NCBI RefSeq assembly: GCF_007556815.1
Contig: NZ_CP041745.1
Coordinates: 3,635,001 to 3,699,000, forward strand
From: Paraburkholderia megapolitana
GTDB taxonomy: Bacteria; Pseudomonadota; Gammaproteobacteria; Burkholderiales; Burkholderiaceae
Direction of reading: 5' to 3'
Length of the DNA stretch: 64,000 bases
The notes beneath the pieces were generated by a model. The model was not told the origin of the DNA and ran no database searches. It saw only the letters and a program-made list of their open reading frames with translations. How positions within the stretch are numbered: the first letter of the stretch is position 1; every line of letters starts with the position of its first letter. A program made the position numbers and the translations under genes. Of this stretch, positions 10,720 to 15,022 are shown piece by piece.

Positions 10720-11586
10720 CTACGCTTCAGTCAGACAATCGATCAACGTCCGGTGCTCCGCATAGTCCGGCATGGTCGCGGGCCAGGTGATCCAGTAGGT
10801 GCCATCCATCGCGAGCGCGTTCGACGTCAGGCGCTTGAGGCGACCTGCCGCAAGCGCCGATTGACACAGCGGCAGTGAGCCGAGCAGTACGCCTGCGCCG
10901 GCTTCGGCAGCATGCAGCGCCAGCACGAACGTATCGAATCGCAGCGACGGTACGGCAGGCAACTGCGTTCCGTTGACTGCACACCAGTCGCGCCAGCCCA
11001 CCCGAGGCCCGGAAGTCGCGATAAGCGGCAGGTGTTCCCAGCCGCGTTTTTTCTTTCCAGTCAGCGCCGGAGCAGCAAGCGGTGCAAGTTCTTCCCTGAA
11101 GAGCCGCTTCGCGCGACGTTCGGGCCACACGCCGTCACCGAAACGAATCTCGAAGTCCGCCTCCGCAAGGCCATAGTCGGGAAGCCGCTGTACGGTTTCA
11201 AACGTCAGCTGGACATTGGGCAGTGCGGCAGTAATCGCCGGCAGTCGCGGCGCGATCCAGAGCGTAATCACCGACGCGGAAGCCGCGATGGTAATTTTCT
11301 GTCGCGGCGACTCGAACAGATTGACGGTGCTGCCCAGCAACTGACCGAACGCCGCCTGGATGTGCGGCAGCCACGCCTCGCCTTGCATCGACAGCACAAC
11401 TCCGCGAGCCCGCCGGTCGAACAACGGCGCGCCGAGTCGCGCCTCGAGATTCTTGATGCGCTGACTGACGGCCGCCTGTGTCAAACCCAGTTCGTTGGCC
11501 GCTGCCGTAAAGCTTCCGAGGCGTCCGGCCGCCTCGAACACGCGAACCCATTCGAGAGGCGGAAGACCCGTAGTCGGCTTGTTCAT
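10720..11586 (-). CDS. LysR-family transcriptional regulator (GcvA-like)
   Basis: 288 residues. The N-terminal winged helix-turn-helix reads LEWVRVFEAAGRLGSFTAAA then LTQAAVSQRIKNLEARLG (about 11-52), the standard LysR DNA-reading domain. The remainder is the periplasmic-binding-protein-like effector domain. The form with LPPLEWVRVFEAAGR and VSQRIKNLE is typical of the GcvA/AmpR-like branch. It is transcribed in the same direction as the binding protein and the two oxygenase genes and lies 115 bases after the binding-protein gene, so it is the likely local regulator of phosphonate use. The effector is unknown; an organophosphonate is a reasonable guess from context only. Confidence 0.88.
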   Translation of the reverse strand: MNKPTTGLPPLEWVRVFEAAGRLGSFTAAANELGLTQAAVSQRIKNLEARLGAPLFDRRARGVVLSMQGEAWLPHIQAAFGQLLGSTVNLFESPRQKITIAASASVITLWIAPRLPAITAALPNVQLTFETVQRLPDYGLAEADFEIRFGDGVWPERRAKRLFREELAPLAAPALTGKKKRGWEHLPLIATSGPRVGWRDWCAVNGTQLPAVPSLRFDTFVLALHAAEAGAGVLLGSLPLCQSALAAGRLKRLTSNALAMDGTYWITWPATMPDYAEHRTLIDCLTEA

Positions 11587-11701
11587 GAGTGGCTCGCAAC
11601 CGTGAAGTCGTATTAGCCCGGTACGTTACATGAAAAGGTCGTTCGCACCGAGCAGCGCGGTCAAGGATAGATCCGGCTTTTCGCCACCCCAGTTGTGCGA
11701 C

Positions 11702-12826
11702 TCATTTGATGTTCGCGCCGACGACCTGATCCCAGCGCTTCGTGATGATCGCGTTGAACGCATCCTGCTGGTCAAGGGTCGGGAATACCGCTTTTTCATA
11801 TGCGGCCGCGGGCGGCAATTTCGCCATCATATCGGCGGGAATCTTGTGGGTCGCCGTCAGGTCCTTGAAGCGAATCGGATGGCAATAGCCGCTCAACCAG
11901 GTCAACTGGCCCTTGTCGGAATAGAGGTATTCCATCCAGAGCTTCGCAGCATTCGGATGCGGCGCATAGGCGCTGATCGCCTGCGCGTACATGCCGGCAA
12001 CCACGCCGGTCTTCGGCACGACGACCTGCACTTTCGGATTACCCTTCAGCGAGTCCCGATCGGCAAGCGCGTTGTAGTCCCAGCGAATCAGGATCGGCGT
12101 CGTGCCTTGCGCGAGCGTCGATTCCTTGCCGATCACCGGGACGAAGTTGCCGGATTTGTTCAACTCCGCGAAGTATTGCAGGCCCGCGTCGCCCGCCTTT
12201 GCGACGTCGCCGTGCGCGCGCGACAGGCCTGCTGCGAATACGCCCAGAATCGCCTGATTGGACACGCGCGCATCGCCTGCCAGCGACACTGAACTCGAGT
12301 AATCGGATTTCTGCAGATCGGCCCAGTCAGTGGGAATCTTGCTGACGAGATCGGCGTTCACCTCGAACGAGAGCACGCCATAGTAGTCGCCGTACCAGTA
12401 GCCATCGGCATCCTTTGCCTCTGTGGGAATGGTGTTCCACGTCGCCACCTTGTACGGAGCGAGCAGACCCTCCGCTTTCGCTTTGGGTGCGAAGGACAGG
12501 CCAACATCGATGGCGTCCGGCGCTTGCGGCCCGCTGTTGCCTTTGTTCGCGCGAATCGCTTCGACTTCGTCGCCCGACCCTGCGTCGGGATTCAATACGC
12601 TGACCTTGAGTCCGTACTTCGCCTTGAAGTCGTCGACCAGTTGGCCGTAGTTGCACCAATCACGCGGCAGTCCCATCAAGGTCAGTTGGCCTTCTGCCTT
12701 TGCGGCAGCGATCAGCTGCGCCGACGGTTCGGCCCACGCCGCGTTCATGCCGAGCAGATTCGCCATACCAAGCGCCGGGAGACCGGCGGCAGCGAATTTC
12801 AAATAATTCATCCAATAATTTTTCAT
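11702..12826 (-). CDS. Periplasmic solute-binding protein, family 1 (candidate phosphonate/amine binder)
   Basis: 374 residues from the ATG at 12826, which has GGAG upstream; an in-frame ATG at 12889 would only add a leaderless extension. An N-terminal Sec signal ends near AWA (about residue 31). The body is a type-2 periplasmic binding protein (AKAEGQLTLMGLPRDWCNYG, then LNPDAGSGDEVEAI) of the iron/putrescine/2-aminoethylphosphonate-like class. No permease or ATPase gene lies beside it, so it must borrow a transporter encoded elsewhere. The adjacent C-P-cleaving pair suggests an organophosphonate such as 2-(trimethylamino)ethylphosphonate as ligand. The fold is secure; the ligand is inference. 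Confidence 0.82.
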   Translation of the reverse strand: MKNYWMNYLKFAAAGLPALGMANLLGMNAAWAEPSAQLIAAAKAEGQLTLMGLPRDWCNYGQLVDDFKAKYGLKVSVLNPDAGSGDEVEAIRANKGNSGPQAPDAIDVGLSFAPKAKAEGLLAPYKVATWNTIPTEAKDADGYWYGDYYGVLSFEVNADLVSKIPTDWADLQKSDYSSSVSLAGDARVSNQAILGVFAAGLSRAHGDVAKAGDAGLQYFAELNKSGNFVPVIGKESTLAQGTTPILIRWDYNALADRDSLKGNPKVQVVVPKTGVVAGMYAQAISAYAPHPNAAKLWMEYLYSDKGQLTWLSGYCHPIRFKDLTATHKIPADMMAKLPPAAAYEKAVFPTLDQQDAFNAIITKRWDQVVGANIK

Positions 12827-13268: not shown

Positions 13269-13859
13269 TCACCTCATACAATGCGCGTCCACGAGCCGTT
13301 GCACCAATGGCGCGTAGTGCGCGAAGTCGGGCGTGCTCGCACCGGTAACCTTCCCCGCATCGTCCGCCAGGCGAACCTTGATCACATCCGCGAGATTCGG
13401 GTTCTGGCTAAAGCGTGCTACCTGCTCATCCGTCATCGGACCGCCCTGAAGCCGTAGCGAATGCACGGATGCCGGCGACAGTTTCGCGAAGTAACCGGGA
13501 TCGACGGCACACAGATAACGCTTCGCGGCGACATGCAGACGAACGCAATCGGTCACGGCGCGAGGAAAGAATTGCTCGACCACGACGGCGCCAGCCGCAT
13601 CGTGATAGTTGTCCTTCGTGTCGCTCATCGAGAACGCGCCGAATTCGCTCGTGAAATGGCCGATGTCATGCAGGAGCGCCGCCACGATCACCGTATCGCT
13701 TTCGCCGTTCTGTTCGACGAGATGCGCAGCCTGGAGCATATGCTCGGCCATCGTCACACCTTCACCGAGGTATTCCTCGCCGCCGCGTCGCGCGAAAATA
13801 TCGCCGATAAACGCAACGATGTTGTCGACATCCAGCGTCTGTTTGATCGGAGTCGTCAT
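13269..13859 (-). CDS. tmpB: TmpB/PhnZ-type HD-domain mixed-valent di-iron oxygenase (C-P bond cleavage)
   Basis: 196-residue cytoplasmic HD protein. Numbered from ATG 13859, it has His40, His64-Asp65 (LLHDIGH), His86, His109 and Asp166. This is the same order, and within five or six residues the same numbering, as the di-iron ligands of PhnZ (34, 58/59, 80, 104, 161). His68 and Lys113 fit PhnZ phosphonate-binding positions, and Tyr30/Glu33 fit its mobile Tyr/Glu pair. Such enzymes oxidatively cleave a 1-hydroxy-2-aminoethylphosphonate to an amino acid plus phosphate. Because the partner is TmpA-like, (1R)-1-hydroxy-2-(trimethylamino)ethylphosphonate giving glycine betaine is the favoured substrate. 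The start overlaps the tmpA stop by one base (TGATG), so the two are translationally coupled. Confidence 0.8.
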   Translation of the reverse strand: MTTPIKQTLDVDNIVAFIGDIFARRGGEEYLGEGVTMAEHMLQAAHLVEQNGESDTVIVAALLHDIGHFTSEFGAFSMSDTKDNYHDAAGAVVVEQFFPRAVTDCVRLHVAAKRYLCAVDPGYFAKLSPASVHSLRLQGGPMTDEQVARFSQNPNLADVIKVRLADDAGKVTGASTPDFAHYAPLVQRLVDAHCMR

Positions 13860-15022
13860 CACGCGTGCTCCCTTTGTTTCTCGATGACCGCCAGCTTCGA
13901 CAGCAACCCGTCCTTGTCCGCATAGCATCCCTGCAGCCAGCGGGAACCCTCGCCCGAATAGCCGCGACGCGCATGCAGAACGCGCGTGTTATCGACGATG
14001 AAGGATTCGCCTGGTTGCAGCTTGAAAGCCACCTGCATGTCGGGTGAATCGATCAGCTCGCCCATGCGGCGATACGCGCGGTAGTAATCGTCCATATCGT
14101 CATAAGGCACATCGACGATGGCGCTGGCCGACCGGTTGTTGAAACGCACACCGACGAGTTCGCCGTCGGGCATCAACTCGATCATCGGACGACGCGAGCG
14201 CAAATGAACACCGGCACTGCCGATGTATTCGAAACGTGCGCAGTAGCGCGTCAGCAGATCGAAACCTCGTGGGCTTTCCTGCTGCAAACGCTCAGCGACG
14301 CGAAATCCGTCTACCACCATGTTCTCGCCGCCGGTCGCCGAGTTTTCGAGGCAGTAGAGCACTTGTAGCGTCGGCACCGGATCGCGATAGGGGTTGTCGG
14401 TATGCGCCTGCAGGCCCAGCCCCGTGAACGCGAGATTGTTCGGGTTAACTTCCGTGCGCACCTCGAAGATCTTGCCGTAGTTGGTTTCGCGGACATAGCC
14501 GAACAGGTCGACGACTTCGAGGAGCGCGGCGGGTTTCACGGGGCCGCCTGCCAGCTTGGCAAAACCGTAACGGCGGATATCGTAGAGCCAGTCGCCGAGT
14601 GCGTCCTCGCTGCGGCCAACCTCAGTGAAATCGGCGCACGGAACGTTCTGGGCGAGGTCCGCATCCCACGTTTCGATTTCCGTAGCGGTCCAGCCCGGTG
14701 CCTGGGGGCGCAATCCATCGTACGCATGCGCAGCGAGCCACTGGATGTCGTAAGCAATCTCCTGATTGCCGGGCCGGAAGGTCACCCAGACGGCCTTCCC
14801 GTCAATCGAAGCGGAGGCAACCCGTGTGTCCGGCGAAATATCGCCGAGCGTAATCAGCCGCTGACCGTTGCCCTGCGCCCGGGTCGATGCATCGCTTGCG
14901 TTGTCTCGCAGCCATATGGCGTGAAAGCGCCGCTCGATGCCGTCGCTAAACCTGACAGCTATCGCTTTCCCGTCGTCCAGAATGCTCGTCGTTTCCACGT
15001 TTTTGCCCGTCGTCTGAGTCAT
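13859..15022 (-). CDS. tmpA: TmpA-like Fe(II)/2-oxoglutarate dioxygenase (gamma-butyrobetaine hydroxylase family)
   Basis: 387 residues from ATG 15022; an in-frame TTG at 15061 would add 13. An N-terminal DUF971-like domain (WLRDN near 37-41) precedes a TauD/BBOX double-stranded helix with the iron triad His207-x-Asp209 ([10 protein letters not shown]) and His350 (TRVLHARRG), and Arg around 352-361 for 2-oxoglutarate. By sequence alone it would be called gamma-butyrobetaine hydroxylase. Coupling to a PhnZ-type HD oxygenase makes it a TmpA, which hydroxylates C1 of 2-(trimethylamino)ethylphosphonate. The usual CxCxxC zinc ligands after WLRDN are replaced by ASDAST. It is the first gene of the locus, preceded by the sodB terminator. 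Confidence 0.75.

Follow-up and report, generated by a model that had tools for sequence, protein, structure and literature searches.

Introduction

TmpA and TmpB convert 2-(trimethylamino)ethylphosphonate (TMAEP) to phosphate and glycine betaine, a reaction established for Leisingera caerulea of the Roseobacter group. PhnY*/PhnZ and the Phn-HD oxygenases likewise bring together an oxygenase and an HD di-iron enzyme that cleaves C-P bonds, and act on another substrate. On the uptake side, the binding proteins closest for comparison are the AepX/PhnS-type proteins for 2-aminoethylphosphonate; AepX is placed in PF13343 in an excerpt of PMC8316502. In the excerpts of open-licence literature searched, no TMAEP transporter is named, and one may be published elsewhere.

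Here we analyse a window of 64,000 nt from Paraburkholderia megapolitana (GCF_007556815.1, NZ_CP041745.1, 3,635,001-3,699,000, forward strand), which contains a tmpAB pair together with a LysR-type regulator gene and a gene for an ABC substrate-binding protein (SBP). The analysis shows that the pathway characterised from Leisingera also occurs in a soil Paraburkholderia. It identifies a regulator together with a defined candidate operator, and it yields a specific candidate for uptake. All evidence is computational, and ligand and activity are predictions from it.

Results and discussion

Layout of the locus

An earlier note on this DNA described four genes, encoding a LysR protein, an SBP, an HD protein and a dioxygenase. 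All of them are present on the minus strand at window positions 10720-15022, in the order tmpA-tmpB-SBP-lysR (Table 1). The coupling of dioxygenase and HD protein is also as described: at the junction GCGTGATGACG, the tmpA stop and the tmpB start overlap as TGATG with one A in common. An upstream TTG would lengthen the tmpA frame to 15061, and the tmpB frame extends to 13928, the ATG at 13859 being taken as its start. NCBIfam assigned no family to four genes in the neighbourhood.

Table 1. Positions of genes and candidate signals within the window.
Feature	Position	Strand	Basis or remark
tmpA, 2-(trimethylamino)ethylphosphonate dioxygenase	13859..15022	-	387 aa from ATG at 15022; NF049936, PDB 6NPB
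tmpB, HD-domain di-iron oxygenase	13269..13859	-	196 aa, ATG start; NF049941, PDB 6NPA
SBP, orphan ABC substrate-binding protein	11702..12826	-	SBP_bac_6 family (Pfam), 374 aa
LysR-type regulator	10720..11586	-	Pfam
Operator-like block upstream of tmpA	15054..15102	-	Matrix from 5 other loci, 39.2 bits
Terminator-like stem after sodB	15147..15172	-	tmp-side edge of sequence common to relatives
Terminator-like stem after tmpB	13208..13244	-	One of 8 sites of this kind in 4.8 kb, against a mean of 4.8 in shuffles
Candidate Pho box (13157-13140), 10-nt spacer, TAATAT, upstream of SBP gene	13124..13157	-	Weak

The window encodes TmpA and TmpB

The dioxygenase scores 583.3 bits on the NCBIfam equivalog NF049936 (cut-off 400) and the HD protein 324.7 bits on NF049941 (cut-off 300), so that both models are passed. 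Compared with solved structures, the dioxygenase reaches 523 bits with PDB 6NPB and 184 bits with human gamma-butyrobetaine dioxygenase (BBOX), and the HD protein 277 bits with PDB 6NPA and 94 bits with PhnZ; alignment to TmpA, TmpB, PhnZ and BBOX thus favours the solved TmpA and TmpB by far over BBOX or PhnZ. Equivalog models and solved structures agree, and on these matches the dioxygenase is TmpA and the HD protein is TmpB, as the earlier note had correctly named them. The enzymes belong to a known pathway, and names for them exist in NCBIfam 20.0.

The catalytic residues are conserved. The TmpA iron ligands HTD...H (H207, D209, H350) agree between the window and all 77 locus rows. TmpB carries the H...HD...H...H...D motif and the YxxE loop, with Tyr30, Glu33, His40, His64, Asp65, His86, His109, Lys113 and Asp166 as previously listed; these nine residues do not vary among the 15 sequences of a TmpB alignment, nor in 80/80 locus rows. 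The offset of 5-6 positions to PhnZ also holds: in pairwise alignments it is 6 up to an insertion of one residue and 5 from there on. Numbering is the same as in L. caerulea TmpB (6NPA), which aligns gapless over 193 residues, and an excerpt of PMC8177086 likewise gives Y30/E33 for that protein.

Like L. caerulea TmpA/TmpB (PDB 6NPB, 6NPA), the window holds a two-gene pair of identical families. It differs in its host, a soil Paraburkholderia, in its lysR gene, which lies downstream and not divergent from tmpA, and in an orphan SBP gene that adjoins tmpB. Going by family membership, TmpA would hydroxylate TMAEP at the carbon adjoining phosphorus and TmpB would then cleave the C-P bond, yielding phosphate and glycine betaine. 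LysR is most likely the substrate sensor that turns on tmpAB via the retained operator-like block. The weakest step concerns uptake: in the periplasm, the SBP would most likely bind TMAEP, or a closely related compound of choline and phosphorus, and dock on a permease encoded elsewhere, the first candidate being the ABC set of a 72% paralogue. Taken jointly, we consider it quite probable that this is a TmpA/TmpB phosphonate-use locus built from a tmpAB-lysR cassette of alphaproteobacterial type, with LysR acting through the retained block and the SBP serving TMAEP through a permease encoded elsewhere. A sarcosine oxidase beta subunit encoded in the genome fits betaine use and counts in favour of this reading.

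Rarity and origin of the cassette

The pair is rare in the genus, with TmpA over the cut-off in 2 of 144 genomes, and beyond the genus its closest relatives are alphaproteobacterial. A tmpAB-lysR cassette of alphaproteobacterial kind was most likely gained by horizontal transfer. Two observations count against the proposed ancestry: two Rhodobacterales loci are equally close by TmpA identity (69-70%), and the tree fork that joins the window to Hyphomicrobiales is weak (support 81/44).

An 'empty site' next to sodB was considered and rejected. Six relatives, drawn from 18 other genus genomes with sodB, align on the sodB side only, so the tmp locus stands at a variable boundary, and they define no clean insertion ends.

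The LysR regulator and its candidate operator

The claim that the locus has its own regulator is borne out by comparison with 79 related loci from elsewhere (flanks of up to 10 kb, some contigs being shorter). The same LysR family lies divergent from tmpA in 59 of them, its relatives being found in alphaproteobacteria, and the window LysR is 40-68% identical to locus LysRs where matched; the next-best LysR of the host genome is 36% identical. In many of these alphaproteobacterial loci, a 49-bp element begins at the start codon of the divergent lysR. Most of this element is kept upstream of tmpA in the window, with spacing unchanged, and lysR is about 3.5 kb distant. Both by family match and by the site upstream of tmpA, the regulator conforms to the tmp-linked LysR, and the position of its gene differs; judged from this comparison, lysR has moved relative to tmpA.

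The retained block stands out strongly, the next-best score among 127,904 positions being 3.2 bits. When it is compared with one of the five loci that supplied the matrix, its margin over the best place elsewhere is small (29 vs 27 of 49), and the right-hand TTATG has been lost in the window; both points count against the joint reading. Our search found no copy of the block upstream of the SBP gene or of lysR, which also counts against it and makes co-regulation of the SBP at most a possibility. Separately, the tmpA leader contains a perfect inverted repeat; this was set aside, as it is the sodB terminator stem.

An orphan substrate-binding protein

The SBP is an orphan: the interval bounded by lysR, the lipase gene and sodB contains no gene for a permease or an ATPase, and the genes around it (tmpB, lysR, lipase, sodB) do not form a complete phosphonate ABC importer. 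To call the locus 'self-contained', as had been done, is too strong: uptake would need parts encoded elsewhere, and the SBP ligand is itself a prediction.

The reading that competes best with a TMAEP function is that the SBP is a hitchhiker, specific for another compound (a glycerophosphodiester, polyamine or similar) and beside tmpAB by chance, with TMAEP entering via a choline/betaine transporter or PhnSTU. We rate its chances at a little under even. In its favour, none of the 79 loci from elsewhere, within the flanks given above, has a match to the SBP that exceeds 80 bits; we also count this absence against the joint reading. The 72% paralogue elsewhere in the genome adjoins a glycerophosphodiesterase (GDPD), not a phosphonate enzyme, as part of a complete ABC set that also neighbours a Na/Pi cotransporter; in addition, the SBP gene has its own leader without the LysR block, and PhnSTU and a choline binding protein are present in the host genome. 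Against a chance neighbour, the SBP gene is flanked by tmpB and by the lysR that belongs to the cassette, and its place beside tmpB is kept in P. acidicola (ATCC 31363, proteins 96-98% identical) and probably in P. sediminicola. For the latter, the records of TmpB (P0006) and of a 90% SBP (P0122) both give 460131 as the longest contig, which suggests that the two are on one contig. Two plasmid tmp regions were read; neither has an SBP gene beside tmpB, and one has a candidate SBP gene about 3.7 kb further on. Plasmid relatives have two permeases and an ATPase in 4 of 4 cases read; this, and the GDPD and Na/Pi cotransporter that neighbour the paralogue's ABC set, we count in favour of the joint reading.

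Two other origins or roles of the SBP were rejected. Recent duplication from the 72% paralogue does not explain it, since the two fall in separate clades, the SBP in one of 5 rows (100/100) and the paralogue in a Burkholderiaceae ABC clade of 9 rows (100/99), which join weakly (81/51). Although it has its Pfam family in common with AepX/PhnS-type proteins, it differs from them in having no adjoining permease or ATPase gene and in scoring far under the PhnS equivalog cut-offs (61.2 of 310 and 58.2 of 395.3); these scores, with 28% identity to the genome's PhnS over 169 columns, argue against a PhnS-type receptor for 2-aminoethylphosphonate.

A more specific version of a TMAEP function, which we regard as unlikely, would make the SBP a dedicated high-affinity TMAEP receptor, expressed on phosphate starvation from a PhoB promoter of its own and feeding the resident glycerophosphodiesterase-linked ABC permease and ATPase. 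If so, the enzyme cassette, once transferred, would have acquired a receptor and borrowed a resident pump. The Pho box in the SBP leader is a weak candidate: it has 2 mismatches and was equalled in 7 of 5000 Markov simulations, there are 4 mismatches at the site aligned with it in P. acidicola, and hits genome-wide number 22 vs 15 in the control.

Other assignments of the enzyme pair

Action on 2-aminoethylphosphonate, like that of PhnY*/PhnZ, is very improbable for the pair. In its favour, metal and loop residues are common to TmpB, PhnZ and Phn-HD; as they also occur in the Phn-HD protein of the host genome, they mark the HD-oxygenase class and not the substrate. The window protein remains under the cut-offs of both the Phn-HD model TIGR03276 (196.8 of 214.6) and the hydroxymethylphosphonate model NF052439 (152 of 300), and the host genome already has a separate cluster of PhnSTU, PhnA, phosphonoacetaldehyde dehydrogenase and Phn-HD. 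In an excerpt of PMC11203657, moreover, TmpB is reported to be inefficient on non-methylated hydroxy-AEP.

Less credible still is the reading in which a gamma-butyrobetaine hydroxylase, serving carnitine synthesis, lies next to an unrelated phosphohydrolase: TmpA is of the BBOX fold family and just clears the cut-off of the BBOX model TIGR02409 (423.8 vs 414.75), which we count against the joint reading, but this is far under its score on the TmpA model, R297 is found in 77/77 TmpA locus rows and is F in the genome's BBOX-like protein, and the latter is encoded by a separate gene within a carnitine cluster (410.2 on the same BBOX model), so that this reading is rejected on model scores and on that separate gene.

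The expectation that annotation pipelines would mislabel the pair holds in part. One plasmid record does name it 'gamma-butyrobetaine dioxygenase' and 'HD domain-containing protein', and TmpA does clear the old BBOX cut-off; with NCBIfam 20.0, the TmpA and TmpB models are both passed, and some homologues already carry the right name.

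Enzymes of the locus

The dioxygenase encoded by tmpA carries TauD and GBBH-like_N domains and the product of tmpB an HD domain (Pfam). In NCBIfam, the dioxygenase passed the cut-off of the TmpA equivalog (583.3 bits; cut-off 400) and also that of the gamma-butyrobetaine dioxygenase (BBOX) equivalog (423.8 bits; cut-off 414.75). The HD protein passed the TmpB model (324.7 bits; cut-off 300) and stayed below the cut-offs for Phn-HD (196.8 vs 214.6 bits) and hydroxymethylphosphonate dioxygenase (152 vs 300 bits). Among solved chains, the best match of the dioxygenase was TmpA (523 bits), followed by human BBOX (184 bits), and that of the HD protein was TmpB (277 bits), followed by PhnZ (94 bits). 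The earlier note had named the pair TmpA and TmpB; its gene identities are correct, and the pathway is the known one, as described for the L. caerulea enzymes in PMC10574752 and PMC8177086. Added to this pathway here are a likely transferred origin, a regulator gene that probably moved and left its site behind, and a candidate orphan receptor.

The TmpB metal and loop residues were unchanged in 80/80 TmpB rows; since the Phn-HD protein of the same genome shares these letters, they do not fix the substrate. TmpA R297 was found in all 77 rows aligned and is replaced by F in the BBOX-like protein of the same genome; a role in phosphonate binding is our guess.

Table. Positions of the features discussed
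Feature	Record	Position	Strand
Secretory lipase gene (Pfam LIP)	window	9078-10634	+
lysR	window	10720-11586	-
Substrate-binding protein (SBP) gene	window	11702-12826	-
tmpB	window	13269-13859	-
tmpA	window	13859-15022	-
Operator-like block	window	15054-15102	
SBP paralogue	same genome	C3:399 kb	
SBP paralogue region	same genome	L169:3304-11142	
AEP cluster	same genome	L170:236-8455	
Alkaline phosphatase family protein gene	Labrenzia plasmid	L197:6778-7623	

As the earlier note predicted, some records carry other labels: in two plasmid records the HD protein is listed as ‘HD domain-containing protein’, and its partner is ‘gamma-butyrobetaine dioxygenase’ in one and ‘TauD/TfdA family dioxygenase’ in the other. 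The TmpB name is already on several database homologues, and the P. acidicola one is still an ‘HD domain-containing protein’. In a Labrenzia plasmid, an annotated alkaline phosphatase family protein gene lies directly 3' of tmpB and is possibly a third member of the tmp operon in that lineage.

Other phosphonate and betaine genes of the genome (7.63 Mb, three contigs) include the C-P lyase gene phnJ and a cluster that contains PhnS, PhnT, PhnU, PhnR, PhnA, phosphonoacetaldehyde dehydrogenase and Phn-HD. The Phn-HD type protein sits within this AEP cluster. L-carnitine dehydrogenase and a choline binding protein are encoded in a carnitine cluster, together with a GbdR-like regulator that scores below its cut-off and a BBOX-like protein that narrowly misses its own (410.2 vs 414.75). 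Sarcosine oxidase beta was also found, consistent with betaine use.

Distribution and origin

The locus was likely acquired by transfer. The TmpA cut-off was passed in 2/144 genus genomes and the TmpB cut-off in 1/59 relatives; among 399 genomes sampled evenly across the order (E limit 1e-55), only the window's own passed the latter. Weaker TmpB matches occurred in 43 of the 59 relatives in all, that of the window's genome being Phn-HD. In P. acidicola ATCC 31363, the closest named record and the basis for placing the genome in Paraburkholderia, all four locus proteins are 96-98% identical, and DNA identity to window 5000-20000 is about 91%, except for one gap of about 120 bases. Six relatives align from the sodB side only, reaching 15129-15246. 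The G+C content of the locus is 59.1%, below the 62.6% of the window, and falls to 44% in the leader that separates the SBP gene from tmpB. The lipase gene, convergent with lysR, also lies beside the locus in P. acidicola.

Loci from elsewhere were taken from the best 80 of at least 377 relatives, the 80th being P. acidicola (L040-L118, n=79). Among these, the closest Hyphomicrobiales loci have a TmpA 69-71% identical to that of the window, and two Rhodobacterales loci (L056, L064) reach 69-70%. LysR identity was higher in five of the closest Hyphomicrobiales (64-68%) than in the same two Rhodobacterales (52-58%). The TmpA tree groups the window with Hyphomicrobiales at a weak fork (81/44). 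The sole actinobacterium-titled locus among the best 80 of at least 377 relatives (L076, Nocardioides marinus DP1N28-1) adjoins Leisingera in this tree, possibly through transfer, contamination or a wrong title.

Regulator and operator-like block

A TmpA match was present in 77 of the 79 loci, and a LysR of the same family lay divergent from tmpA within 600 bases in 59 but not in the other 20 (best 80 of at least 377 relatives). We searched the 59 with a permissive pattern (CAT[AT]A or TAT[AT]A, 25-60 bases, TTAT) and found it in 31, compared with 136/2950 letter-shuffled copies. Conservation of the end letters is imposed by this pattern; that of the inner TTTG core is not. The length, likewise not set by the pattern, was exactly 49 bases in 26 of the 31 matches, and CAT was the lysR start codon in both loci checked (L042, L058).

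The window keeps a block with the same spacing upstream of tmpA, scoring 39.2 bits vs 3.2 for the next best of 127,904 positions (matrix from five other loci). By plain identity, 29-34 of its 49 positions matched, compared with 25-28 for the best competing site in the window; the closest case was 29 vs 27. The block also occurs in P. acidicola, and both have lost the right-hand TTATG. A model including the window's own site found one genome place at E<=10 (150/240 candidates scored); of nine other loci it found two (L050, L055) and missed seven, six of which have no divergent LysR. The closest other LysR of the genome is 36% identical to that of the window. The tmp cassette probably came with a divergent lysR, which would since have moved downstream, leaving the site behind.

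Leader and binding protein

The SBP leader carries a terminator-like stem after tmpB; the 4.8-kb region scanned has 8 stems of this kind vs a shuffle mean of 4.8. It also holds a candidate Pho box, with two mismatches to the consensus, then 10 nt, then TAATAT. A match this good arose in 7/5000 simulated leaders, and the site aligned with it in P. acidicola has 4 mismatches. With three mismatches, the whole window gave 2 matches vs 3.2 expected. Across the genome, the pattern gave 22 hits vs 15 for the reversed control, one of the 22 about 2.5 kb upstream of phnJ. Support from sequence for a Pho box in this leader is modest.

No partner transport genes lie beside the SBP gene. Its paralogue (72% identity over 349 residues) is followed by three genes: one that had no Pfam match at the limit applied and is labelled a permease subunit in plasmid relatives, then a permease gene and an ATPase gene. 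Near these ABC importer genes lie those for a Na/Pi cotransporter, a glycerophosphodiesterase (GDPD) and a DeoR-type regulator. Matches of paralogue strength (E<1e-170) occurred in 92/144 genus genomes (hand count); two of the 92, P. acidicola and the genome of the window, carry the paralogue as well. Two permeases and an ATPase accompany an SBP relative in 4/4 plasmid records, partner genes having been read there and in the window's genome only. The family profile reaches seven solved sequences; these include one that binds pyridoxal phosphate, one that putatively binds 2-AEP, and 5T1P. GpxB, which PMC12718374 describes as a PhnT-family receptor for glycerol phosphate, was considered as a lead. 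In the tree, the window SBP forms a clade of its own, and we consider it a candidate orphan receptor. Both the window and P. acidicola show its linkage to tmpB, which is likely in P. sediminicola too.
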